Position numbers and translations under genes: made by a program
In this document: piece by piece, positions 1 through 23,311 of the stretch
How positions within the stretch are numbered: position 1 is the first letter of the stretch
Layout of the letters: the number at the start of each line of letters is the position of its first letter
The notes under the pieces: generated by a model
Told to the model about the DNA's origin: nothing
The model's database searches: none
The model's input: the letters and a program-made list of their open reading frames with translations, nothing else
IMG/VR virus record: IMGVR_UViG_3300009173_000081
Location: 1 to 23,311 of that record
DNA from: a virus
Length of the DNA stretch: 23,311 nt
Reading direction: 5' to 3' (one strand)

Positions 1-2121
1 AAGTAAAGTTTTTAGAATTGGTTTTTCAAAAGGAAATAATAAAGACCTATGTAAATCTGTTACATTAAATATTTTTGTATTTGCTGTCTCATCACTATTA
101 ACCTTACCTGTTGGGTCAATATTTATTCCAGATGTAATACTTGTGGTAGCAACAACAACTGCTGATTCAATATCTTTGGCACTAAATTGAACAGTATATG
201 TAGAATCTGATTGCGTTTGTTGTGAAAGAGGTGAATTAAGTAAAGCCATATATGAACTAGCTGCTTCTATTGCTCCATCTGCATCATGGTCAACACCATA
301 TGGTATTGCTCCTGTTGCTCCTACATTTGCCCCAAACCAACGAGTAATTCTTCTCGTATCACTTGTTGATGATCCTAAATAAGTTGTATTAACTGTTACT
401 GTACAATTATATAAACAATTAACAGTTGGAAAAGAACTGGCTCCAGAAGTAGCAAGTTTTACTACTGAAACATTGGCTACCGCTGCCCCACAAGTTCCAG
501 TTACTTTACTGAATCTCATATCAAATAAGTCTAATCTACCAATATATGAAGATTTGGCATTTGCACCAGCCGCAGAATATTGGAAATTTCTAACTCTTGC
601 GGTTCCAATTTTTGTATTGGCTATGGTTGCCGCGCTTGTAGTATCAATAGCGGATACAGCATGAGTGGTGTTTTTACTAAACACATAATTCGCGTCAACT
701 GGCCATTTTACCATATGCAAATCAACAATCTCACAATTGGCTTCTTGGCCCGTACTACCTGCCCCATCACACAAAAATGAACCATTGGGATCTCTTACTT
801 TGAAATAGGGACCATAATCAAGAGTAATTGTTTCACCAAAAACGTTGGAAGTGTCTCTTGACTTAGAGAGTGTTACATAATCTGTTTGAGGGCTTTCATA
901 TCCATAACCTTTGATATATGCTTTACCTCCACTAATACCAATAGAAAAATCGGTTTCTCGTCCAATTGTTTGGATTGTACCGTCACCCAAGGTGGCAACA
1001 GTAGAAAATTGAGTATTATTTGCAATGGCAGAAATTGTTGTAGTAGCCGCTGTATTACTTGAAACAAAAACTGTTTGGCTTGTAGTCAACTCATCAGAAA
1101 ATGTAGTACCAGAACCAGTAATAGTTCCTGTTCCGCTTATACTAGTAGTACCACCTATTCTATGATACGTAGTTTCTGCTTCAAAAGGAGTTATCGTATA
1201 ATCACCACTTTCATCTTCCGTTCTTCGCGCAAGAGTTTTTTCTAATTCTGTAGTGCCCGGATACTTATTTGTAATAAGTTTTATTCCATTATTAAGTCGA
1301 AATAATTCAAGATAATTTGCGTCAGCCGCATTTTCAATTGGATCTGTTTGATTTAATTGTTTCTTGGCAAGAGCCGCCACAATTTTATACCTATTTGCTC
1401 CGGGAGCCGTATAATTTTCAGTGCCCTGTGCGGTATCAAGTAATGAACTATCATCATTATAATCCACAAATGATTCGGTAATTTCAAGTCCCACACGATA
1501 TGAAGGTGTTTTAGAGTATTTTTCTAAAACTAATGTTTGTGCCGCTACTCTGACAAAAAATCCTCCTATATAATACACACCCGCATCTATACTCACAATA
1601 GATGCGTTAGAAGAAGGTGCCGTATTTCCACTCGCAGACACTACATCGGCAATTTCTGATGTAGTAATTGTATTTGCTTGAAATGTTGTACCCTCTTCAG
1701 TTGTCACAATTTCATTATTTGAAAATTCTTTTTCATCCAAATATTGTACATAAAGAGTATCATAATCTGTGGCAGTGGCTTCATCTGTTTTTACTACATA
1801 TGCTCTAGCGCTTGAAGTGCCTCCCGTAACAATTTGACCATCGAAACTATCTGCGGTAATATCAGTGCCTTCATAAGCATCTTGCAATTTTACAGATTTA
1901 AGATCCGTATCAAGTGTAATATTAGCGCCTGTCACTCTCTGACCATCTTCAAAAAGATAAGAACCATTTCGTTCAATTTGTTTTTGTAGAATAGTTTGTA
2001 ACTGGGTCACCTCCCTTGCTTGCAAAGAATACCCGGGACGGAATAGAATTCTATAAAAATCCTTATCCTCACTATAATCATCATAATATGGAGTTACATT
2101 AAAATCTGTCGTTAAAGCCAT
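1..2121 (-). CDS. DUF4815-type virion structural protein, 3' end off the left edge
   Basis: The minus-strand frame starting at the ATG at 2121 is open to base 1; I checked most of it triplet by triplet, including the last 1260 bases, and found no stop. At least 707 codons are present and the C-terminus lies outside the window. The N-terminus (MALTTDFNVTPYYDDYSEDK, then FYRILFRPGYSLQARE and QLQTILQKQIERNG at residues 22-53) matches from memory the start of DUF4815 proteins of T4-like cyanophages, which are encoded next to baseplate wedge genes and are thought to be tail or fibre-attachment proteins. A short GG-T-S-S-A-R-A-Y-V repeat lies at about residues 94-110, and a GSGTTF...DEL repeat maps to 961-1134; both recur in neighbouring genes. 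An AGGA about 8 nt upstream of the ATG is the likely ribosome site, and the gap to gp8 is 27 nt with no promoter motif. Family call is confident; exact virion location is inferred. Confidence 0.85.
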   Translation of the reverse strand, partial: MALTTDFNVTPYYDDYSEDKDFYRILFRPGYSLQAREVTQLQTILQKQIERNGSYLFEDGQRVTGANITLDTDLKSVKLQDAYEGTDITADSFDGQIVTGGTSSARAYVVKTDEATATDYDTLYVQYLDEKEFSNNEIVTTEEGTTFQANTITTSEIADVVSASGNTAPSSNASIVSIDAGVYYIGGFFVRVAAQTLVLEKYSKTPSYRVGLEITESFVDYNDDSSLLDTAQGTENYTAPGANRYKIVAALAKKQLNQTDPIENAADANYLELFRLNNGIKLITNKYPGTTELEKTLARRTEDESGDYTITPFEAETTYHRIGGTTSISGTGTITGSGTTFSDELTTSQTVFVSSNTAATTTISAIANNTQFSTVATLGDGTIQTIGRETDFSIGISGGKAYIKGYGYESPQTDYVTLSKSRDTSNVFGETITLDYGPYFKVRDPNGSFLCDGAGSTGQEANCEIVDLHMVKWPVDANYVFSKNTTHAVSAIDTTSAATIANTKIGTARVRNFQYSAAGANAKSSYIGRLDLFDMRFSKVTGTCGAAVANVSVVKLATSGASSFPTVNCLYNCTVTVNTTYLGSSTSDTRRITRWFGANVGATGAIPYGVDHDADGAIEAASSYMALLNSPLSQQTQSDSTYTVQFSAKDIESAVVVATTSITSGINIDPTGKVNSDETANTKIFNVTDLHRSLLFPFEKPILKTLL
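961..1134 (-). repeat. ~58-aa beta-repeat module, copy in the DUF4815 protein
   Basis: This in-frame segment reads GTGTITGSGTTFSDEL, then a VFVSSNTA strand, TISAIANNTQFST and LGDGT. The same pattern (G-x-x-T-x-F-x-x-E/D-L, then S-S-N/D-T, V-x-x-I-x-x-x-T-x-x-T, then GDGT or GTG) occurs three times in the 1481-aa protein at 5316-5468, 4272-4430 and 4020-4193. It probably forms a small beta-domain. Confidence 0.6.
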
Positions 2122-3751: not shown

Positions 3752-3761
3752 ATATTTATAA
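3752..3761 (-). promoter_or_regulatory. T4-type late promoter ahead of gp8
   Basis: On the minus strand this reads TTATAAATAT and contains TATAAATA, the exact late-promoter core of T4-like phages (recognised by gp55 sigma with the gp45 sliding clamp in T4). It lies in the 44-nt gap between the 1481-aa gene's TAA and the gp8 ATG, about 31 nt before the ATG. The identical 10-mer occurs in the equivalent place before gp25. Confidence 0.75.
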
Positions 3762-3764
3762 TCT

Positions 3765-6700
3765 TTATACAGATGATTTCTTTTTACCAACCTGATTATT
3801 CAGTATTGTAAATTCTTCAAAAAGCATATACTCTGTTTCACTTGTCGTTTCTAATTGGAATCTGCCCGCATTTGGAACGGAATACTTCGCTGTTTCAGTA
3901 TCAATAATATTTAAAAATATATTAGCCGTTGAGAATTTTTTGTTTAATGTAAGAGTAGTATTACTAGATTCCAAATCTAATCTATGTTCTTTTATTCTTA
4001 CAAAAGTTTGATTGGCTCCAACAACAGGTCCCGTGCCAAGAGCTACATTTGTAGTAAATGTAGTATTATTTGTAATAGCCGTAACATTTGCATATAATGA
4101 TGTATTACTAGAAAGTGAAATTATATCACCAGTAGTTAAGTCTTCATCAAATGTTGAACCCACCGCAGTAACAATTTTTACTCCATCATTAACACCATTA
4201 GCAGATGTATTACCTCTTATAGTACTTTCAAGAATAAAATATAAAGGCTCACTATCTATATCAATAGTACTTAATGTACCATCTCCCATAGAATTAGCAT
4301 TAACTACCATTAGAGTACTATTACTAATTGAAATTACTTCTGCTATTGCACTAGTATCTGATGAAAATGATACTATATCACCCACTTCTACTTCTTCATC
4401 AAATTTTGTGGCCACTCCTATAATGCCATTAGGAGTCGCTGAATAAGTATTTGCAGTATAACTTGTACCATTTTCAGTAACAGTGTTTCCAGCAAGAAAT
4501 GTTCCTGTACCAGAATGTATCAATACTGTTTGAGCATTTGAATCAAATGTAACTATATTACCCGAAGCACTATTTGCTTCATTAACCAAATAATTTGATA
4601 TTGTTGTATTACTATCTTCTAATATCAATCCTCCTGTTTCTAAAGTAAATCGAGAATCATCTAGAAAAAATGTATCTATTTGTAAATTAATATTTTTATG
4701 ACTCAAAAGAGAAAGTGTTGAGCCACTATCATTTCCAACAACATTTGTACTATCTATAAATGATCGAGCAAATTCTCCATAAATGGTCATAGAACTGTTC
4801 GATGTAACATTATAATCGGCAAGAGCAATTGCTGTTGAACTAATTTGTAATATATCACCAGATACATAACCTTCCAATTCCATGTGTACTGGATCACCTC
4901 CAGATGACTCCTCTAATAATAAATTATTACTATCAGAATAAAATTCAATTGAAGCATTAGCTGTAGAATCGGCTAATGAATCACCTTGATAAACAGTTTC
5001 TCCTTCAATAAATCCTCGGGTACCCGTGAAATCTAATGATGTTCTAACATTTGATGTACTAATCAATTCGAATAATAATTTATCATAGGCCTGTGAAATA
5101 GATTTATTGGGTGAAAAATTTGCAGTTGCATTAGTAACCTGCATCGAAATAATTAAATTTGATGAAGATGCTAAAGTTGTTCCTGCTATATTTGAATCTA
5201 ATCTTAATTCTCCATCAGAAACATCAAATGCTTGTTCATCATCAAAAGTAATCATATCATTGGCAGAAAAATCACTACTAAAACTGGTTCTTAAATAAAT
5301 GGACTGAGAAGTACCGTCTCCTATAGCAACATTAGTTGTAAGTGTATTAGCGTCCGTAATCGCAGTAACATTTGCCAACGTAGTTGAGTCACTAGAAACA
5401 TAAATTTTATCTCCAACCTCCAATTCATTAACAAAGTCAGTTGTAGTTTTTACTCCATTTAAAGTTGTACTACTACTAACAGTTGTTGTTCCCGAAAGTG
5501 TTGTTATACCATTTATTGTAGTATTACCTCCTTGAACTGTAATATCTCCACCACCACTAACTGATGTATTACTTATTGGTTGAACCTTAAATGTATTTAC
5601 ATTATGTGTTGGGTTTGTATATTCTTCTGTAATTAAAAAGTGATCAGATCCTAATTGTGCTCCACGCCCTAATGGAATTCCTTGAGTACCATCTTCCATG
5701 ATAATGTCATTATTATCTTCAGTAATAATAATATGAGGAGAGTCCTGATTTAAATACAAATATTGTCGAGGAACCTGCATTTCTCCAAAAAGATGTTGTC
5801 CCGCAGGATGTAATAATTTTCTAACTGTTTTTCTATAATCGTCAATAGAATTTTCTGCTCTTATTACATACGAATAATCTTGATAATAAAGACTGTCTTG
5901 AACAATTTTAGTAGAACTTAATTGACCCCTATCATCTTTAAATGAACCTGCCGCTAATACAACAACTCCAGTCTGAGCTGTAAGATCGGCGTTTCCATCG
6001 CCCAAAGTAATCATATTGATTGTTGGAGCTGAAGTATATCCTAAACCAGGATTTGTAATTTCAAGGGCTCTAATGGTTCCCGCAGCCAACTGTCCAGCCG
6101 CAACATTTGCATTGTCTCCTTTAGTACCTCCGGCAATCACTACATTTGAAGTGGAATTTACCTTTGCTCTTGCTTGTGATGTTGAGTTTGAGCTTGTAAT
6201 ATATTCATTTAATTCAAATCCCCTGAGATTAAATGTCCATTTATCTCCGACAGCGGCAGAATCACCAGTATTAGCTACAAATTTCACTGACACCCCTGTA
6301 TTACCTAAAGCCTGATCTGGACGGGTAACTGATTGTGTAATAGGAATAGATGTTACAAATTCTACAACAGATTGTGCTTCCTGTCCTCCAGTATTTGCAG
6401 TAAAACCAAATATATTATAACTGTATGTTGAAAATGTACTATTTGCGGATTCTACTTTAATTGTGAAATATGTATTTCCATTTGTGTTTGCGAAATCATA
6501 AAATCCATTAACTGTGGCAGTAAAAGTTCCGTTAGTGGATGTGGCTTTGGTGAGAGTTGTGGCTCCAGCATTTACTCTACTTATAAAACGTAATTGAGTA
6601 TTACCCGAATTGACAGAAATTACATTACCTGTTGCGCCGCTTGTACCCCCTGTAATGGTTTCTCCTATAAAAAATGAATTAGAACCAATATTGTAAATAT

Positions 6701-8210
6701 TTAAAAGAGGGGCGGCTGGTAGTTTTAAATCAGAAACACTATTTGAAGTAACAGAAACAGCTGGAAGAGCTTCATATCCCTCACCTGATGTTATAACTGA
6801 AAGTGCATTAATGGAACCTGTTTCAGTAGCAGTAAATCCCAATATATTTCCAATTGTATTATGTGTGGCATTTCCTAGTGTATTACCTGAAAAACCATAT
6901 ATTGAAGCATCTAAAGAAATTTCTGAAAAATCGGCAACTACATCATCATTAATATCAATTGTCTCTGTTACATGGATACTAGAAATACGTCCCGTGGCGC
7001 CGGCACCACCTGTACCTGTATTGATAATTATTAGAGATGTAGCATTAACATATCCGTCACCACCATCATTGAATATAAAACTTCCAATTTTACCTGTACC
7101 AATTGCAGAAATTTTTGCGGCAGCTTGTTCAACTGCATCACCACCACTAAAAACAAGTTCGTTTCCTACTTCATGTCCCGTTCCACCATCATTAATGACT
7201 ATGCTTGACACAACGCCCAAAGCAGTTCCAGTTCCAGATGCACCCTCAGCAGTTGATGAAGTTACTTTTTCAGCAACATCAAATGTTCCACTAACATCAG
7301 TAACAAAAAGTTCTGTAATTGTAGTGGCACCAGAAATGAATGTTTGAACCTTATCAATTTGGGCTGTTGCTCCAGAAGTATTTCCTGTTAATGTTCTATT
7401 AGCAAAGTCAGAAGTACTATCTGTAGTATCAATTCTAATACTTTTGTCTTGAACCCAAACACCATCAGAAAGTTTTAAAACATCCTTTTTTGGAAAATAT
7501 AATTCTAAATCGTCTATAGAATATAAAGAACGAAATAAAAATTGAAACGAAGCCTCGGATCCCTTAGTACGATAAACATCAGTAATGTGTTTAAGTATTA
7601 ATCGTTTATTACTATGCGCGGCTGTGGGAATATCTTCAAGAAATTCTTTCCTGAAATAATCGAGATACGAGGAAGGAGTATCATCAACATCAATTAAAGT
7701 TAAAAGAGATTGGGTTCCCCATATAGGATTTCTTTTATAACTAACTACATTAGCCGTTGCTAAACTAATATCACCTGTAATTATTTCACCAACACTAAAA
7801 TCTGTTTGAGTAATACCCGATGCATATATTTTTGTACTTAATGTATTTTTATTTGCATCTACGGTTGCTGTAGCTCCGCTTGAAGAACCTGTAATAGTTT
7901 CTCCTGAAGAAAATGTAATAGTATCTGACCGTGTTGATTCATTGATAAGCTTATCTGTTGCTGTGCCAGTGGTAAGTTCTTCAAGCAAAAATCTACCAGT
8001 AGAGGTCGCACTAAGAGAAGTGGTTTCTAACAATATACCAGATTCATTCCTAGTTACTGTATCAATAGATAATTCATTGGACTCCAAAAATTCATAATAT
8101 TTTTTCAAAAAAGTTACAAATTTTGGACCCTCTGAATTTACAAATTCAGGAAGTTGATTATCTACTAATACTGATACTTTATCTTCTATAGAAAGATGTG
8201 ATTGGGCCAT
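3765..8210 (-). CDS. Very large baseplate wedge protein in the gp7 position
   Basis: The 1481-aa product lies between gp6 and gp8, where T4-like phages encode gp7, the wedge initiator (T4 gp7 is 1032 aa). The N-terminus (QLPEFVNSEGPKFVTFLKKY, 19-38) resembles cyanophage proteins in this slot. Residues 203-250 (RLILKHITDVYRTKGSEASF, then LYSIDDLELYFPK) resemble the R-x-KG-(T/S)-E-A motif of P2 gpI-type tail proteins. Residues 771-812 (DSLYYQDYSYVIRAEN, KLLHPAGQHLFGEMQ) form a second conserved-looking block. The rest is low-complexity beta repeats: GE-x-ITG-x-x-SGATA-x-V (about 102, 141, 272, 515), G-GY-x-x-x-P loops (about 340, 380, 474, 720), LLLE-type strands, and three ~55-aa modules after 915. 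It starts at ATG, 13 nt after gp6, with only a weak AAAGAAGA ribosome site. Structural role is firm; gp7 equivalence rests on position. Confidence 0.75.
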   Translation of the reverse strand: MAQSHLSIEDKVSVLVDNQLPEFVNSEGPKFVTFLKKYYEFLESNELSIDTVTRNESGILLETTSLSATSTGRFLLEELTTGTATDKLINESTRSDTITFSSGETITGSSSGATATVDANKNTLSTKIYASGITQTDFSVGEIITGDISLATANVVSYKRNPIWGTQSLLTLIDVDDTPSSYLDYFRKEFLEDIPTAAHSNKRLILKHITDVYRTKGSEASFQFLFRSLYSIDDLELYFPKKDVLKLSDGVWVQDKSIRIDTTDSTSDFANRTLTGNTSGATAQIDKVQTFISGATTITELFVTDVSGTFDVAEKVTSSTAEGASGTGTALGVVSSIVINDGGTGHEVGNELVFSGGDAVEQAAAKISAIGTGKIGSFIFNDGGDGYVNATSLIIINTGTGGAGATGRISSIHVTETIDINDDVVADFSEISLDASIYGFSGNTLGNATHNTIGNILGFTATETGSINALSVITSGEGYEALPAVSVTSNSVSDLKLPAAPLLNIYNIGSNSFFIGETITGGTSGATGNVISVNSGNTQLRFISRVNAGATTLTKATSTNGTFTATVNGFYDFANTNGNTYFTIKVESANSTFSTYSYNIFGFTANTGGQEAQSVVEFVTSIPITQSVTRPDQALGNTGVSVKFVANTGDSAAVGDKWTFNLRGFELNEYITSSNSTSQARAKVNSTSNVVIAGGTKGDNANVAAGQLAAGTIRALEITNPGLGYTSAPTINMITLGDGNADLTAQTGVVVLAAGSFKDDRGQLSSTKIVQDSLYYQDYSYVIRAENSIDDYRKTVRKLLHPAGQHLFGEMQVPRQYLYLNQDSPHIIITEDNNDIIMEDGTQGIPLGRGAQLGSDHFLITEEYTNPTHNVNTFKVQPISNTSVSGGGDITVQGGNTTINGITTLSGTTTVSSSTTLNGVKTTTDFVNELEVGDKIYVSSDSTTLANVTAITDANTLTTNVAIGDGTSQSIYLRTSFSSDFSANDMITFDDEQAFDVSDGELRLDSNIAGTTLASSSNLIISMQVTNATANFSPNKSISQAYDKLLFELISTSNVRTSLDFTGTRGFIEGETVYQGDSLADSTANASIEFYSDSNNLLLEESSGGDPVHMELEGYVSGDILQISSTAIALADYNVTSNSSMTIYGEFARSFIDSTNVVGNDSGSTLSLLSHKNINLQIDTFFLDDSRFTLETGGLILEDSNTTISNYLVNEANSASGNIVTFDSNAQTVLIHSGTGTFLAGNTVTENGTSYTANTYSATPNGIIGVATKFDEEVEVGDIVSFSSDTSAIAEVISISNSTLMVVNANSMGDGTLSTIDIDSEPLYFILESTIRGNTSANGVNDGVKIVTAVGSTFDEDLTTGDIISLSSNTSLYANVTAITNNTTFTTNVALGTGPVVGANQTFVRIKEHRLDLESSNTTLTLNKKFSTANIFLNIIDTETAKYSVPNAGRFQLETTSETEYMLFEEFTILNNQVGKKKSSV
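4020..4193 (-). repeat. ~58-aa beta-repeat module, copy 3 in the 1481-aa protein
   Basis: Residues about 1340-1397 read GVKIVTAVGSTFDEDLTTGD, then SLSSNTSLYANVTAIT, TTFTTNVA and LGTG. This is the copy most like the one in the DUF4815 protein at 961-1134. Confidence 0.6.
4272..4430 (-). repeat. ~53-aa beta-repeat module, copy 2 in the 1481-aa protein
   Basis: Residues about 1261-1313 read NGIIGVATKFDEEVEVGD, SFSSDTSAIAEVISIS, then MGDGT. It follows the module pattern with a diverged middle. Confidence 0.5.
5316..5468 (-). repeat. ~51-aa beta-repeat module, copy 1 in the 1481-aa protein
   Basis: Residues about 915-965 read LNGVKTTTDFVNELEVGD, VSSDSTTLANVTAIT, TLTTNVAIGDGT. The ANVTAIT core is identical to copy 3, indicating duplication inside the gene. 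Confidence 0.6.
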
Positions 8211-8223
8211 CTAATTATCTTCT

Positions 8224-10050
8224 TTAATATGTTGAAGGTGCAGGATTTGTGCCCGAAGCAGCGTCATCATTCATGTGTATTGTCACATCGCCTCGTTCTA
8301 TTGATACTATTTGTTCTCTAACAGGAATTATATCCTTACTATTAGGTTTTACGGTAATTTTAAGATTACTTCCATCATATGCAGTAGGACCAAAATTATT
8401 TAATACAATTTTACCATTATTATAATTAACTGTTCCTGCATCAGATTTAACAACAACATTTACATTATTAGGTTTTTTCACAATTCTAAGGGAGCCATCA
8501 ACATCATCAAAAAAACAATCCGTTTGTACAATACCTTGATCATCCGTATGAGTAAATGTAGTACTTGATATTGCATTAACATAACCAGAAAATGGATGTC
8601 TAATGGGGTTTTTAAAATCTACCGTATATGATGTTGTAAGAGAAGTATTTGGTGCTAGTCTTATTTGCATTTCAATCGTAGTTTCATTTCCTTTAATTGA
8701 AGTATCTGTTTCATCTATAGTTTGAGTGAAGGCAGAAAACCGAAATTTTTCATCAAATGATGCGAGATTGGTTGCACTAAATGCTACAGCTTCATCTTTA
8801 ATGTTAGACTCAATTTGTGATGTTGTTTTTTGAGTTAATCTAGAATCATAATTCACATTTGAAGTTATCACCAAAAATAGATATAAAGGATCAACTATTA
8901 GAGGTGAAATTGATGCCACAGAATATTTTGCTAATATATTATCAATAATATCATTCTTGGCAGCAGTTGATATTTGAAACCCCGATTTTGGTTTAAGAGC
9001 CAAATAAACTTTTCCATATATTGGAGGATCGTTATCTTCTCCTCCCCAAGCCACAACCGCTTCAGCATTAGTATATTCTGATAAAAGAATTCTTTTAAAA
9101 TCATTTATTGTTACAGCTCTATTTTGAACAGCAAAAAACTTTGGCGCATTAAACTTAATAGAACTAACAGATTCTTTTGTTGTACCTCCCGAAGCGACAC
9201 TATTTGTTGTAATCGTAACTGATGAATACCCACCTACAGTACTTGCCACAGTAAATGAGCTTGCTTTATTACCCACAGGACCACCACACACATTATATTC
9301 AAGAATAACAATATTATTATTTGCTACTGATCTTCCTGTAACACCATCCCCAAATTCTACACTATATTTTTCACCATCACCTTCATGAAACCAATAAACA
9401 TTAGATGTTGCATTCGTTTGCGCCAAATCAGTTGCTAGAGTATAAGTATATTGTGCATCATTTGTATCAGAAATTTGAATTGTTACAGCCAGAGATGATG
9501 TATCAACACCTTCATTTGGTATAGTAAACCGCTGTTCTGAATTTGCTGTATTTACAGTATAACGGTGTGATAAAGGAATTCCCTCTTTAATATCTACACC
9601 ATATACATTTACTACAGAATTATCACTATTGGCAACAGCTGCTGTTGCTGATGTAGTCACAAACGTATATGACACACCCTCAATAGATGTATTAAATTTT
9701 GTATTTTTGGCAATAGTAATAGTGGATGGAGAATCATTAGGTGTAATAGCGAGGTCTAAAACTGCCGTGGACCCCCTGCTAGAAGCGGGCGTATATCCAA
9801 GCTCCTTTGCTTTTTGAACTACTGAACTCCTCAATACAGCCGTATCTAAAAACATTTCATTGGCTATCATATTCAAATAAAACGCATTATAATGGGTATT
9901 ATATGACAAAACATCAAGTAAGGCTGACATGGAAGATCCTTCAAAATCATAATCTGTAAATTCATCTTGATCTTGTAGAAATAGTTTTAAATTTGTTTTT
10001 ATTGAATCAAAATCTAATTCTGAAACTTCTAATTTTGATGTTGTTGCCAT
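8224..10050 (-). CDS. 6: Baseplate wedge protein gp6 (baseplate J-like)
   Basis: gp6 forms the inner iris of the T4-like baseplate, dimerising between wedges and binding gp7, gp25 and gp53. The N-terminus (LDFDSIKTNLKLFLQDQDEF, then DYDFEGSSMSALLDVLSYNT, then HYNAFYLNMIANEMFLDTA) is the hallmark gp6/baseplate-J opening and matches the family without gaps as I remember it. The KELGYTPASSRGS loop (about 83-95) and FGDGVTGR (about 233-240) are further family signatures. The 608-aa length is close to T4 gp6 (660 aa). The start is ATG with a TAGGA ribosome site in the 16-nt gap after gp25, so it is probably transcribed with gp25 from the 10622 promoter. The stop is TAA. There is nothing broken or unusual in the frame. 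Confidence 0.93.
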   Translation of the reverse strand: MATTSKLEVSELDFDSIKTNLKLFLQDQDEFTDYDFEGSSMSALLDVLSYNTHYNAFYLNMIANEMFLDTAVLRSSVVQKAKELGYTPASSRGSTAVLDLAITPNDSPSTITIAKNTKFNTSIEGVSYTFVTTSATAAVANSDNSVVNVYGVDIKEGIPLSHRYTVNTANSEQRFTIPNEGVDTSSLAVTIQISDTNDAQYTYTLATDLAQTNATSNVYWFHEGDGEKYSVEFGDGVTGRSVANNNIVILEYNVCGGPVGNKASSFTVASTVGGYSSVTITTNSVASGGTTKESVSSIKFNAPKFFAVQNRAVTINDFKRILLSEYTNAEAVVAWGGEDNDPPIYGKVYLALKPKSGFQISTAAKNDIIDNILAKYSVASISPLIVDPLYLFLVITSNVNYDSRLTQKTTSQIESNIKDEAVAFSATNLASFDEKFRFSAFTQTIDETDTSIKGNETTIEMQIRLAPNTSLTTSYTVDFKNPIRHPFSGYVNAISSTTFTHTDDQGIVQTDCFFDDVDGSLRIVKKPNNVNVVVKSDAGTVNYNNGKIVLNNFGPTAYDGSNLKITVKPNSKDIIPVREQIVSIERGDVTIHMNDDAASGTNPAPSTY

Positions 10051-10621: not shown

Positions 10622-10631
10622 ATATTTATAA
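10622..10631 (-). promoter_or_regulatory. T4-type late promoter ahead of gp25
   Basis: The minus strand reads TTATAAATAT, containing the late core TATAAATA. It sits in the 43-nt gap between the third small paralogue's TAA and the gp25 ATG, about 30 nt before that ATG. The 10-mer and the spacing match the site before gp8, which supports a genuine promoter over chance in AT-rich DNA. Confidence 0.75.
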
Positions 10632-18680: not shown

Positions 18681-19559
18681 TTACTCCAATAATAATTTTA
18701 AATCTACTGCACTTTTAGTAAATTTTGGTAAGTTTATGGGAGGTCCACTAGGACCCGTACCTGTAGGATGAGTGTGTTCTTGTAATGCTGTAATTAAATC
18801 TTCTAACAATTTGGCTAAACTTCCACCCGCACTTTTAATAGAATGTATCCCCGCTGGATTAATAGTATGTTTACCTAAAGCCGTAGAAAATTCTGCTTGG
18901 ACTAATCCTTGTAATTTTGCCTCATTAATTGCTGTTGCGCTCCAATTCACAGCTGATTGAAAATTTGTAGAGAGCGTACTTATTGCTAATATAGAACCTG
19001 CTGGTGTCATTGAAAATTGAGCCAAACCCGTAGCCGCGGGCGTACCGGGAACCTTTCCTGAAGCCAAAGAAAGAGGTCCAAAACAATTTGAAATTTCAGC
19101 TGCGGTTGGTGTCATCCCCAAACCAACAGTACCAACTTCTATATTCAACCCCTTAGGTCCCGGTGGAGTATCATTGCTAATTACCAAATTCAATTGATTA
19201 GCTTTCATTGTCAATGAGCCAGTTGCCGTTATGCCCATTGACATAGAAGAATTTAATTTAATCGCCTTAGAAGTCAATGAATATGATCCAGAAGTTATCC
19301 TTTCTGCTGTACCAGCATCACCACCATGTAACCGTGTCATCTGTGATGTTTCTAAAATTATTTCATTTGCCTTTAAATGAATTTTATCTGAAGATGTTCC
19401 GGAAGCCACACTCAATTTAGCATAATCTCTACCCATTTCAAAAAAAGTACCTTGTTCTGGAGTTGCGGCGGGTGGTCCTTCTGCTTCAACCTTAGGTAAG
19501 GTTGATAATATTATTTTACCTTCTTCAGTTTCCATATTTAAATCACCAGTTCGCCCCAC
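18681..19559 (-). CDS. gp5-type spike C-terminal beta-helix, encoded separately from the OB domain
   Basis: The GTG at 19559 lies 2 nt after the gp5 TAA and opens a 292-aa frame. It is Gly/Ser/Thr/Asn-rich with alternating strand patterns (IHLKANEIILET, YSLTSKAIKLNSS, GSLTMKANQLNLVIS), as expected for the intertwined beta-helix needle of gp5. It ends with a helical segment (AKLLEDLITALQE), then HTHPTGTGPSGPP at 262-274, a His-containing motif seen near the ends of many spike or baseplate-V proteins. No ribosome site precedes the GTG. The same frame is open and coding-like back to 19583 (PNYHVRV before the GTG), so the true protein is probably a continuation of gp5 across a -1 frame change. 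Natural gene splitting, frameshifting and a one-base sequence error are all possible. Confidence 0.75.
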   Translation of the reverse strand: MGRTGDLNMETEEGKIILSTLPKVEAEGPPAATPEQGTFFEMGRDYAKLSVASGTSSDKIHLKANEIILETSQMTRLHGGDAGTAERITSGSYSLTSKAIKLNSSMSMGITATGSLTMKANQLNLVISNDTPPGPKGLNIEVGTVGLGMTPTAAEISNCFGPLSLASGKVPGTPAATGLAQFSMTPAGSILAISTLSTNFQSAVNWSATAINEAKLQGLVQAEFSTALGKHTINPAGIHSIKSAGGSLAKLLEDLITALQEHTHPTGTGPSGPPINLPKFTKSAVDLKLLLE

Positions 19560-19561
19560 TC

Positions 19562-20641
19562 TTACATGATAATTTGGAGGTATTTACCTGTAGTACCTGA
19601 CGAATTTACAAGAAGATCATATCCATATTGAATTGTTTCTACTTTTGTTCCTTCCACAAACGAATAACTATTAGCCATGACATTGGAGTAATAATTTGCG
19701 GAAATCTTATCATATTTTGCTCCATCGGGATGTATTTCAGTATATGTGCCAGAACGATGAAACCAATGTAATCTTTCAGAACCCGGAGTGTCATCAACTT
19801 CAATAATATGACCGCTTTCAGATTCGTGTACATGGTTATAAGGATATTGTGCCCCATAAGGTGACGTTAGGAATTCAAAATTGCTTTTTGCCGAAGCAGA
19901 AGTAACAGTACCAATCCTTTGGGAATCTTTTTGTTTTTCTTTTACTATTGTACCACCATCTTCTCTAGTGGCTCCCGTAATTTTCAACCTGGCAGAACCT
20001 GAAAAATCACCAGGTCGAGCAAGAAGTGGAGTAGTTGGGCTAGGAGCACCAGCTAATTGATTTGTACTTTTGGGATAGTTTTGAGTTCTTGTAAAAGCTA
20101 CTTCTGATCTGTCTAAATGTGGGTTGCGAGGTATTATATCACCCTTTTCCCAAATTTTAACACCCTTACCATCACGGTTACCATAATCTACAGCTGCAGG
20201 GTGGTCAGGAGCATTATCTAATTCTGCATAATCACGAGGATCATGAAATCCCATATCCCTAGATGATTCTCTAATTCCTTCAAATGAACTTCCTTCAGGA
20301 ATTCCATGAAAAGTTCCCAACATAACTGCATCTTGTGCATCTTCACCATCTCTAAAAAATCCCATTACCCAAGAACCTTCTACTGGTCCTGTAGGTGATA
20401 TTCCCACTCCTGTCTGACTAGCAGAAGTAATGGGCATTAAAGGAACCGCCCAAGGAAGTGTATCTGTGGGCATCAAATCTTTATCTTCAGTATGCCAACC
20501 CACAATTCTAACTCTACATCTTCCGAGATAGAGAGGATCAAAACGGTCTTCAACTACACCATGCCACCAAATAAACCCATCTTTACCCATCCAATAGCGG
20601 CGAGAAAATTTGTCTAACACTTCTGGAGATATTGCTGGCAT
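19562..20641 (-). CDS. 5: Baseplate hub/tail spike protein gp5, OB-fold part, no lysozyme domain
   Basis: gp5 forms the trimeric central spike below the gp27-type hub. Residues about 24-116 are a clear match to the T4 gp5 OB domain: WWHGVVEDRFDPLYLGRCRV, then TDTLPWAVPLMPITSA, then SPTGPVEGSWVMGFFRDG. The T4 lysozyme domain is absent; the sequence moves into a linker and a beta region (NHVHESESGHIIEVDD, SERLHWFHRSGTYTEIHPDG at about 265-310), which is the start of the beta-helix as in cyanophage gp5. The frame then ends in LQIIM-TAA, mid-repeat. With the following 292-aa frame the total is about 650 aa, a sensible full-length spike. The ATG overlaps the upstream gene's TAA by one base (TAATG), so translation is coupled. 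Confidence 0.92.
   Translation of the reverse strand: MPAISPEVLDKFSRRYWMGKDGFIWWHGVVEDRFDPLYLGRCRVRIVGWHTEDKDLMPTDTLPWAVPLMPITSASQTGVGISPTGPVEGSWVMGFFRDGEDAQDAVMLGTFHGIPEGSSFEGIRESSRDMGFHDPRDYAELDNAPDHPAAVDYGNRDGKGVKIWEKGDIIPRNPHLDRSEVAFTRTQNYPKSTNQLAGAPSPTTPLLARPGDFSGSARLKITGATREDGGTIVKEKQKDSQRIGTVTSASAKSNFEFLTSPYGAQYPYNHVHESESGHIIEVDDTPGSERLHWFHRSGTYTEIHPDGAKYDKISANYYSNVMANSYSFVEGTKVETIQYGYDLLVNSSGTTGKYLQIIM
19565..19583 (-). other. Frame junction between the two gp5 parts
   Basis: The gp5 frame is open to the TAA at 19564-19562. The downstream frame is open from 19583, after its own TAA at 19586-19584. A -1 shift anywhere here joins them (for example ...GKYLQ + NYHVRVGRTG). One extra A in the AAA run at 19573-19575 would give one uninterrupted gene. 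No canonical X-XXY-YYZ slippery heptamer is visible. Confidence 0.6.
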
Positions 20642-20898
20642 TATTCTACTCTTTTTCTATTTAAATAATTAATAAATTCTTCATCAGCTCTCAATTCATC
20701 CAACCAAATTTGACAATTTGAAATACATGCTTCAGAAAGAAATGGCACACCATTTTCGTTCAAGAATACAGCATAATAATATGGATCATCTCTTTCAAGA
20801 CGTATGTAAATATTTTCATCTAACTGTTCAAATTTTAAAAGTTCCCAGGATGTAATAGCTCCTGGTTCAATAATATATCTATCTTGTATTTCATTCAT
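20641..20898 (-). CDS. Conserved-position hypothetical protein, 85 aa
   Basis: This small acidic protein begins MNEIQDRYIIEPGAITSWEL, followed by alternating charged strands (ENIYIRLERDDPYYYAVFLN) and a C-terminal helix (LDELRADEEFINYLNRKRVE). It has two Cys (SEACISNC) near residue 60, no signal peptide and no membrane segment. It is sandwiched between the kinase gene (1-nt gap) and gp5 (1-base TAATG overlap), so all three are probably translated in a coupled way. Size and position suggest an assembly factor or small hub component, like the small hub-assembly genes of T4, but no sequence motif supports a specific assignment. The two overlapping junctions argue that it is a real gene. Confidence 0.7.
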   Translation of the reverse strand: MNEIQDRYIIEPGAITSWELLKFEQLDENIYIRLERDDPYYYAVFLNENGVPFLSEACISNCQIWLDELRADEEFINYLNRKRVE

Positions 20899-20899
20899 G

Positions 20900-21919
20900 C
20901 TATTTTTTCTGGTTAAGAAGTTTTTCTTTCATTCTACGCCCCACCCCTATATTTTCTAAATCTTCCTTTGAACGGTGTGGTTTATCGGCTATTATTCTAC
21001 CTCGCGTGTCCCCAAATATATGATTTAAACTTATGACTTTTGGAGCACTAGTTTTTATCCATGATAATACCATTTCCATAGCATCTTCATGTGGAATCAT
21101 CGGCCGACCCTCTCTTTTTAATCTTAAATAATTAAAATCTTGAATCACAACTTTATGTCTAAGTGGTATACCATCACTATCAACTTCAACATTACCGTCA
21201 CTATCTCTTTGTACAGGCTTAATTGGCTCACCAGTTTCTTTGTCTACAAAGGGAATTGTTTGGCTGGGATTATTAAAAATAATATTAATTTGTCCATCTA
21301 TAGTTTTAGGTAAAACTCCTGTAATCAAGTCAAACATTGTATTTGCTGCGCCTTCATGAGTTCCTAATAATATTTCATCCGCAACAACACGATCACGTGA
21401 TTTATTATTCTTTACTGCTATAGCATAATCAGTGAGTATCCAAGTAACATGAATATTTCTAGGTTCATAACCAGCATCTAATAGAGAAGGAATAACATTT
21501 GCATAATCATCATGTTCACTTCCTGTAATATCAAACATAATATTAGGTAGTATTGTTGGTCGCACGTTTCTAAGAAGAGCAGAAAGAGTTTTAGCTTTTA
21601 TACCTAATTTTTTCACAAATGTGTGTAATGTAAGAACATCTCTAGGGTTTCTTAGGCTTAAATTTTTTAATTCTGGATATTTGTCCTTTTGTTGAGCTAT
21701 TGTTATAAAAGCCTGTTTCCATTTATCAATATCACGGATTTTAAATTTTTCACCTTCCATAAAGTTTTTAATTGCATAACCTTTACCAGAACCAGCCCCA
21801 CCAGCAAGAAAAACGACCTGCCCATATTTCTTGCCACCCTGATATACTATAAGTTTTTCTTCAAGATATTTTTCTTCTTGAAAATCTTTAATCGCTTTAT
21901 ATTTTAAAAAATCTAACAT
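20900..21919 (-). CDS. P-loop (zeta-toxin/AAA_33-like) kinase in the hub operon
   Basis: The 339-aa protein has a Walker A motif, GGAGSGKG, at residues 40-47, right after a hydrophobic strand (QVVFLA). An RDIDKWK segment (62-68) fits the acidic strand-2 position of small-molecule or zeta-type kinases. Further on come LPNIMFDITGSE (about 124-135) and a WILTDYAIAVKNNKSRDRVV block (about 155-174), where N-x-x-R-x-R resembles the lid arginines of zeta-toxin-like kinases. A GDTRGR segment lies near the C-terminus (about 304-309). The substrate is unknown. It is not a terminase or helicase: no Walker B DE pair of that type is seen, and it is too small. The ATG has an AGGAG ribosome site overlapping the hub gene's TAG, and the stop is TAG. 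Kinase fold is well supported; the zeta-like subtype is inferred. Confidence 0.75.
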   Translation of the reverse strand: MLDFLKYKAIKDFQEEKYLEEKLIVYQGGKKYGQVVFLAGGAGSGKGYAIKNFMEGEKFKIRDIDKWKQAFITIAQQKDKYPELKNLSLRNPRDVLTLHTFVKKLGIKAKTLSALLRNVRPTILPNIMFDITGSEHDDYANVIPSLLDAGYEPRNIHVTWILTDYAIAVKNNKSRDRVVADEILLGTHEGAANTMFDLITGVLPKTIDGQINIIFNNPSQTIPFVDKETGEPIKPVQRDSDGNVEVDSDGIPLRHKVVIQDFNYLRLKREGRPMIPHEDAMEMVLSWIKTSAPKVISLNHIFGDTRGRIIADKPHRSKEDLENIGVGRRMKEKLLNQKK

Positions 21920-21930
21920 TTGAAATTCTC

Positions 21931-23310
21931 CTATCTACCAGATTGTCCTTTAATTCTTCCAGAAATTGCTAACGCTTCTTCAGAATCTTTACCCTCCATA
22001 GTGCCATGCCCCACATGTTCTTGAGATCGACTAGACAAATCAGTTAATTTACTTAAAGTTGTTACCGGCCATTCTGGAACAAGTGGCTCATATAACGAAT
22101 CTTTTACTATTCTCATTGTGGTTGAATAACTAAAGGGCGTTATTCTATGTTGTATTCTTGAAACTAAATAATTACCCGTGTAATATCTATGATCTGTTTC
22201 GGGGTCAAACGGATCTGGAATTTCAAATTCGATTATTTCTCCAACTCTTCTATTCGGGTCACCAGGAACTTCTAACCTTAATATAACATTTTGTAATTGT
22301 TGGAGCTGTGATAATCGTGGTTGTAACCATTCTTCTACATTATTTCTATAAACTGTTTGTTTTTTATCTGCATTTCTACGTACTATATGTCTATAAAATG
22401 GTTTTGTATGATTCATGTTCGTTGGCATAAATTTAACAACCGATTCTGGAGAACCCAAAGCATCTAATTTTCCACTACTTAATTTATGTGCTTTACGCCC
22501 ACCCTCACCAGATTCTTTAACATTTAAAAAACTATTTCTACCAGTTTGTATATTATCATATTCAAATGCTGTATCATATCCAAATGATTTAAATCCTATT
22601 TTCATTCGTATAAGGTCATGAGTAATTAATTGGCTTGAATACATTCCTAATGAAAGGTTTTCTAAAATATTAAATGTATGATCAATAGAAAATGAATTCA
22701 CACTTACTTGCATAGCAGACATTCTATCTCCCGCGGCAGCGGCAGCCACATCAACATCTTCCGGAACCCACACATATTTAGCCGCCGGAATTTCTTGTTC
22801 ACTAGGTTTTGATTTAGAAAGTTCTTTTACTTGTAATTCTGATATTTCATCAGAATGTGGATTCGGTGTCTCATTTACATCATCTGGTCGTTTAAACTGT
22901 GATGGAACTGTAGTTGACGAAGGATTTAACATACTTTCAATAGAACGAAAATAAAACCCATGTACCGTTTCATAAAATACAAAAGTACCAATTCCCCTAT
23001 CTGGAGGACCACTTCTTGCTGAACAAAAATTTATAGCTTTAAATGGACTCCAGTTAGGAATAATAATATGTAATGGGGTAGGAGAATCATCTGCCGATCC
23101 CTTTACGGGTAAATATAATGGTTTTTTTGACCCTCTACCATCCTTCGCAATATAAGTAGAATAAACATCTTTAACAATTTCTGTAGTAGATTTACCTTTA
23201 TATGATTTTTGAATTTTTGTCTGTAAATTTGTAATATGTTCCTCGGAAATACAATTTAAAACATATGTTCATGTAGTATCATTCACCTGTAACATTCTTG
23301 ACATTTCTAC
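21931..23310 (-). CDS. Baseplate hub protein (gp27-position), partial, with an in-frame TGA
   Basis: The frame enters from the right edge, so the N-terminus is missing. It reads ...MSRMLQVNDTT, a TGA at 23269-23271, then TYVLNCISEEHITNLQTKIQ, KSYKGKSTTEIVKDVYSTYI, PNWSPFKAINFCSAR and IGTFVFYETVHGFYFRSIES. It continues without break for 445 codons to a TAG. The W-S-P-F-x-A-I-N-F...RS and FVFYE...GFYFRSIE patterns look like contractile-tail hub proteins (T4 gp27, Mu gp44, VgrG N-terminal type). A YTGNYLVSRIQHRI segment near the C-terminus fits the hub's closing barrel. Position directly upstream of gp5 agrees. The first ATG after the TGA is at 22932, 112 codons in, without a convincing ribosome site; no GTG or TTG occurs between. 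The TGA therefore interrupts a single gene. Hub identity rests on pattern and context. Confidence 0.7.
23269..23271 (-). other. In-frame TGA inside the hub gene
   Basis: Both flanks are coding-like in the same frame (LQVNDTT before, TYVLNCISEE after), so this is a substitution-type stop, not a frameshift. It lies 41 bases from the window edge. No gene in this window ends in TGA. Confidence 0.8.
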
Positions 23311-23311
23311 T

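Follow-up and report, generated by a model that had tools for sequence, protein, structure and literature searches.

To our knowledge, the proteins known to be injected by T4-type phages are few, comprising the ADP-ribosyltransferase Alt and small proteins that counter restriction. The T4 internal proteins IPI, IPII, and IPIII are small, injected restriction inhibitors that carry unrelated bodies behind one leader, in which two aromatic residues three apart are followed by an L/I-x-E cut site. Read from T4 DNA, IPI begins MKTFKEFTS and continues to TITE-A, and IPII and IPIII begin MKTYQEFIAE, which in IPIII is followed by A. The T4 protease gp21 cleaves after L/I-x-E, and IP propeptides are 10 to 19 aa long; in IPIII, positions 4 and 7 control targeting and positions 8 and 10 control processing, with Asp at position 10 blocking processing but not targeting (PMC9026906). 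According to Silas and colleagues, this leader signal led to the discovery of many T-even ip genes, and Ip1 to Ip3 share no homology besides it (PMC12373910). Alt, which is packaged in the head and trimmed by gp21 (PMC9026906), provides a precedent for an enzyme in T4-type heads.

Here we describe a phage gene that joins a leader of this design to a kinase. The window, by which we mean the whole stretch of DNA analyzed (23,311 nucleotides, positions 1 to 23,311 of IMG/VR virus record IMGVR_UViG_3300009173_000081, an uncultivated T4-like virus), encodes on its minus strand a zeta/PNK-type P-loop kinase of 339 aa (20900..21919, ATG start; PHROG 5268). Judged from sequence, the family is best read as internal proteins of the T4 type whose body is a kinase, encoded in the window's lineage in the baseplate operon.

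Kinase family, fold, and catalytic residues

The window kinase matched PHROG 5268, which is annotated "unknown function," with an E value of 4e-43. By tblastn, at least 206 phage records contain a homologue, the matches being mostly to Klebsiella, Enterobacter, Cronobacter, Aeromonas, Citrobacter, and Escherichia phages, and a profile scan built from the alignment found at least 552 relatives in IMG/VR, where a scan with the window protein as a single query had returned none. This breadth rules out the chance Walker-like loop that the initial annotation had named as one way in which its kinase assignment might fail. Bacterial and archaeal assemblies yielded five loci on MAG contigs, one of them (L141) with the full hub gene order and none with a trustworthy host. 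Among the tblastn matches is Klebsiella phage Olmo, for which a "zeta toxin family protein" is listed (PMC12666361). Another is in RB43, and from name and position only we equate it with RB43ORF241c, which a 2006 list of novel RB43 ORFs gives with a weak match to Zeta toxin (0.36); the passage on that ORF proposes neither a function nor packaging (PMC1524935). RB43ORF241c and the other phrog_5268 members of pseudoteven-type phages belong to the same family and lie outside the hub operon.

Both sequence motifs reported at the outset are present in the window protein: Walker A (GGAGSGKG, residues 40 to 47; 21779..21802, minus strand) and the N-x-x-R-x-R block, which reads N172-K-S-R175-D-R177 (21389..21406, minus strand) and supplies candidate lid arginines. 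A candidate catalytic base is found in D63-x-D65 (21725..21733, minus strand). For comparison we used the best 80 of the at least 552 IMG/VR relatives plus 29 further ones, all of them pattern-selected, so that columns within the search patterns are biased. This set contained 79 distinct sequences with a length of 250 aa or more, which as related kinases are non-independent samples. Across them, K46, D65, T132, R175, R177, and K268 were invariant and D63 was present in 77; T132 ends the motif P125-N-I-M-F-D-I-T132 (21524..21547, minus strand), where its conservation (79 of 79) is biased because the motif formed part of the search pattern. By analogy, we take K46 to be the Walker A lysine, D65 the acidic base, and R175 and R177 the lid arginines. 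Since these residues are invariant across the 79 sequences, the loss of catalytic residues in relatives, which had been put forward as grounds for rejecting the kinase, does not occur. In Tenacibaculum phage PTm1 (ORF-187; L008, 8909-10750), an apparent intein sits exactly within the Walker A loop, with junctions AGGAG^C...SGN^SGKGF and a LAGLIDADG_3 match at an E value of 0.0011.

The subfamily was examined with profiles and a structure prediction. The window protein scored 14.7 bits against Pfam Zeta_toxin (PF06414), below the curated cutoff of 22.3, a cutoff passed by six of eight relatives from phage records; at an E value of 0.001 or less, 41 of 45 aligned relatives matched. A search of NCBIfam gave nothing useful, PADLOC gave no match, and a profile search of solved structures, with both the single sequence and the family profile, gave only weak P-loop or chance matches. 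An AlphaFold2 model of the window kinase had a mean pLDDT of 82.7 (45-sequence alignment, leaving out L001 to L009, near-copies, and long-start variants). VIA-align placed the model closest to AvrRxo1 (Z 12.6 over 206 residues, at only 10% identity), zeta (12.1 and 11.9), and Clostridium thermocellum PNK (11.5), followed by PezT (10.9) and T4 PNK (10.0), with polynucleotide kinases overall at 9.6 to 11.5; we treated Z differences under 1 as ties. AvrRxo1 is a plant-pathogen effector. The T4 and C. thermocellum PNK chains share the core kinase fold with the window kinase at 11 to 15% identity, and Cronobacter phage GAP161 encodes a separate PseT besides its kinase.

The model is thus about equally near to zeta toxins, AvrRxo1, and polynucleotide kinases, and its fold points to a small-molecule or nucleic-acid-end kinase without choosing a substrate. 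Action on UDP-GlcNAc or the cell wall near lysis, as the initial annotation had offered, is one candidate among several. The original label of a zeta-toxin/AAA_33-like kinase is supported by the profile matches of most relatives and by the retained catalytic residues, but the window protein itself falls below the family cutoff, and the structure prediction that was to settle the subfamily returned a zeta/PNK-type fold with the three groups about tied. Zeta toxins and PezT have in common with the kinase the fold (Z 10.9 to 12.1), Walker A, the paired arginines, and the profile match in most relatives, as would be expected if it were the zeta toxin of a toxin-antitoxin module. The kinase differs from them, however, in its phage leader and in having no antitoxin partner: a hub gene lies upstream in the window and in many relatives, and no epsilon/PezA-type antitoxin gene was seen beside the kinase among the neighbors identified (hub, gp5, RNase H-type, VWA/peptidase, and other phage genes). 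With the subthreshold Pfam score and the lack of a PADLOC match also against it, we regard a toxin-antitoxin role as highly improbable.

The hub-operon slot

The kinase ORF had been placed between hub and spike genes, and this slot was confirmed. Upstream lies the gene for a hub-position tail protein (21931..22932, minus strand; phrog_350, E value of 9e-25), whose homologous frame runs past its ATG towards the contig end with one in-frame TGA (window about 23268-23311). Downstream are an 85-aa ORF that the initial annotation does not mention (20641..20898, minus strand), the OB domain part of a gp5-type spike/hub protein (19562..20641, minus strand; Gp5_OB, E value of 2e-18; phrog_430, E value of 2e-78), and a further stretch over which the gp5 homology carries on in a different frame (18681..19559, minus strand). 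Compared with a 702-aa homologue in L017, the gp5 gene is interrupted at 19559-19600 by a change of frame, either a sequencing error or a real split.

The kinase stop lies 1 nt from the next ATG, consistent with the coupled translation first proposed, but on the upstream side the kinase starts 11 nt past the hub stop and has its own ribosome-binding-like AGGAG (21928..21932, minus strand), so that coupled translation is supported only in part. The further proposal that the kinase is made late drew no support from promoter motifs: the T4-type late motif TATAAATA occurs four times in the window, against 4.36 expected, and never before the kinase gene. Two late-promoter-like TATAAATA motifs, at 3753-3760 and 10623-10630 (minus strand), precede the starts of baseplate genes by about 33 nt.

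By profiles across 113 sources, the gene order in many contigs is tail-tube cap, gp53, hub, kinase, gp5, gp25, gp6. Counting same-strand matches no more than 1,200 bp away, 64 sources were of the hub type, with the kinase beside hub/gp5-type genes, 30 had it beside RNase H-type and/or VWA/peptidase genes, and 19 had other contexts; because the relatives were pattern-selected, these frequencies are not population estimates, and the sources are redundant (they include the window, which recurs as L004, and some contigs that are counted twice). Synteny with hub genes, which had been named as a check, is supported by other environmental phages. On a kinase tree of 77 of the 79 distinct sequences used above (250 aa or longer; L008, with its intein, and L110 left out), the context labels clustered, with 5 changes versus 32.3 when shuffled, and the window kinase grouped with the hub-type L014 to L021 (97/98).

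The isolates closest by gp6 are Pelagibacter phages HTVC008M (41.5%) and Mosig and Methylophilales phage Melnitz. In the baseplate operons of HTVC008M and Mosig, the space between hub and gp5 is without a kinase, and the Melnitz operon has none before gp5 (no hub gene was recognized in the part of it that was examined). Mosig has no kinase homologue anywhere in its genome, and HTVC008M and Melnitz each have a distant, shorter homologue elsewhere. The whole T4 genome likewise lacks a homologue, in agreement with the statement that T4 has no such kinase, and in the Straboviridae the gene occupies a site separate from the hub genes; it adjoins a deoxyribonucleotidase-type gene, near Hoc, in GAP161 and Mm5. 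The 85-aa ORF of the window did not align to the small ORF at the same place in HTVC008M or Mosig, so the exact insertion point of the kinase is unproven.

Given HTVC008M, Mosig, Melnitz, and T4, the kinase is not a conserved part of the hub operon. The hub slot is real and recurrent, and because the closest isolates have the operon without the kinase and the Straboviridae carry the gene at another location, it behaves as cargo rather than as a part of the hub. A kinase that served tail or hub assembly, or was itself structural, acting on or sitting in the baseplate hub, would explain the position between hub and gp5, the recurrence of that position in several clades, and the tight spacing to the next gene. 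It would not explain the operons that lack the kinase, the copies in the Straboviridae or in the 30 sources with RNase H-type and/or VWA/peptidase neighbors, or the packaging leader, which non-hub copies carry as well. A role in tail assembly, one of the functions originally offered, is weakened by these observations, and we consider it improbable.

The leader and its protease motif

Residues 1 to 21 of the window kinase form a predicted propeptide (21857..21919, minus strand), made up of the leader MLDFLKY and, after a linker, L19-E-E21. The sequence runs MLDFLKY...YLEEK, as MLDFLKYKAIKDFQEEKYLEE-K, and has its aromatics, F4 and Y7, where T4-type internal-protein leaders have theirs, near residues 4 and 7. 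The GAP161 kinase begins MKSFKDFTSLDEA and reaches its cut motif as MKSFKDFTSLDE-A; two other kinases begin MKTFLQYLEE-K (L033) and MLNFKQYLEE-K (L010). The design in each case is two spaced aromatics, a linker of variable length, and L/I-x-E at the domain boundary. The predicted cut in the window kinase falls between E21 and K22. Model confidence jumps there, from pLDDT values of 68 (residues 1 to 10) and 62 (residues 11 to 20) to 88 (residues 21 to 30), which puts the predicted cut at the domain edge.

L19 of the L/I-x-E motif was present in 77 and E21 in 78 of the 79 kinases. To quantify the leader we used 69 kinases that were distinct in the first 60 residues and started with M (from the best 80 of at least 552, plus 29). 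The strict leader together with L/I-x-E occurred in 36 of them versus 2 of 859 other genes of the same loci, the exact IPIII register in 15 versus 1, and a relaxed leader pattern in 55 versus 10. When residues 2 to 14 were shuffled in 1,000 rounds, the strict leader alone, found in 36 of 69, had a mean of 1.8 and a maximum of 6. Among representatives under 60% identity, 11 of 19 had the strict leader and L/I-x-E. Many hub-type kinases have L in place of F/Y in the leader and fit the relaxed pattern only, and L005, L028, L034, and others scored as misses because their starts are extended upstream. Exceptions are PTm1, with V-x-E, and SCTP-2, which has no leader aromatics. The single non-kinase gene in the exact IPIII register encodes an internal-protein-like protein of 167 aa that starts MKTYKDFITEE, directly downstream of the L078 kinase (1321-1824). 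In L142, a MAG contig assigned to the gammaproteobacteria, a relative of 431 aa (5800-7095) starts MHQFKSYLTD, with Asp at position 10, the residue reported for T4 IPIII to block processing but not targeting.

L/I-x-E also precedes the domain in the shorter, distant homologues of HTVC008M and Melnitz, and therefore there is no clean leader-less control; the L-x-E-K of the kinase could belong to the fold. It would do so if the protein were an infection enzyme that never enters the virion, serving nucleotide or polynucleotide metabolism, host takeover, or, as a kinase, a cell-wall precursor. The near folds, which include zeta toxins, AvrRxo1, and polynucleotide kinases, and the deoxyribonucleotidase-type neighbor in GAP161 and Mm5 are compatible with such an enzyme. 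It would, however, leave unexplained the spaced aromatics, the variable linker, and the occurrence of the same leader on unrelated proteins in contig G002, and we think it rather unlikely.

In GAP161 (three 50-kb stretches, 150 of 178 kb; 494 ORFs), the kinase was the only annotated start with the leader and L/I-x-E. An equivalent scan of T4 (246 ORFs in 100 of 169 kb) returned IPI, IPII, IPIII, 57B, and 61.1, together with a few starts that were internal or antisense. The 54-aa product of T4 gene 61.1 (record position 19130, minus strand) begins MKTFKEFIKED, which nearly duplicates the IPI leader. In G002 (157 kb), three unrelated proteins (L123, 2218-3132; about 1-731, minus strand; and 7953-8381) have the leader of its kinase in strict register: MRTFKQYISE, MKSFKRHITE, and MRSFVNFLRE, versus MRSFKQHLEE in the kinase. 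One has a SET domain and one a DUF6321 domain, and from their leaders all three are likely to be further packaged proteins.

A gp21-type protease (PF03420) was found in 10 of 22 kinase-bearing records, including all 7 full named phage records, jumbo phages among them; it was found in 3 of 15 virus contigs, and the 12 without a match are mostly short fragments. The window contig covers no head genes, and its own protease is hence unseen. The GAP161 kinase itself gave a weak match to a head-maturation-protease PHROG (E value of 6e-4), which we judged to be due to chance.

Delivery of the kinase

Taken together, these results make it reasonably probable that the kinase is a catalytically intact internal head protein of the zeta/PNK superfamily that is packaged, loses its propeptide to the prohead protease, and enters the host together with the DNA. 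In this scheme, the kinase would be made from the baseplate operon and drawn into the prohead core by its N-terminal capsid-targeting leader (MLDFLKY...), a gp21-type prohead protease would trim it after E21, and the trimmed enzyme would be packed with the genome and injected along with it. In the new host, its target may be a hydroxyl group, either of a nucleotide-type metabolite or at the end of a nucleic acid, which it would phosphorylate, the most likely benefit being to blunt a defense or to start host takeover ahead of phage gene expression. Our leaning towards a nucleotide-type substrate and a counterdefense or takeover role comes from analogy with IPI to IPIII and Alt. The sequences show the kinase family with its catalytic residues, the leader with its protease motif, and the recurrence of the hub slot; from these we infer late expression, packaging, cleavage, and injection alike, and the kinase is probably a delivered enzyme and not a tail part. 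The earlier suggestion that it travels in the virion is supported by the packaging-type leader, but with the head rather than the baseplate as its likely place.

The kinase resembles IPI, IPII, and IPIII in its leader aromatics, its cut motif, and the joining of an unrelated body to the leader, but those proteins are small restriction inhibitors, whereas the kinase is a conserved enzyme of about 280 to 340 aa whose packaging is predicted from its sequence. From Alt it differs in its chemistry, and we claim no homology between the two. The parts of the literature consulted on zeta toxins, packaging, and virion proteomics of these phages contained no statement that the family is packaged and no virion proteomics of a kinase-bearing phage. 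Two proteomes that we considered, as far as their texts go, were uninformative: that of Morganella phage MP1 (PMC5384007), since the sole Morganella record matching the Mm5 kinase is vB_Mm5, and those of Klebsiella phages (PMC13119998), which are placed in Jiaodavirus, with Slopekvirus Miro treated as unrelated. Miro carries the kinase. In Atu_ph07, the zeta-domain protein gp053, a distant kinase homologue, lies within CDS 31-76, for which 29 proteins were detected in the virion (PMC6102473); gp053 may be one of them.

More broadly, T4-like and jumbo phages from marine to clinical settings may carry this conserved kinase as a head-packaged, protease-trimmed, injected effector, the kinase equivalent of Alt and the IPs. 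Its action on a nucleotide-type molecule of the host or on the end of a nucleic acid would precede the expression of any phage gene and would probably be directed against host defense, with the same leader loading other enzymes, such as the SET-domain protein of G002; we hold the chances of this wider proposal to be about even. If it is true, the cargo that virions bring in at time zero would gain a new chemistry in the form of a widespread packaged kinase. One proteomics run could then test what is now a "hypothetical protein" of RB43, RB16, Lw1, GAP161, and others among at least 206 phage records, and the packaging leader could reveal cargo enzymes of uncultivated phages that are hidden in unrelated operons such as those of baseplate genes.
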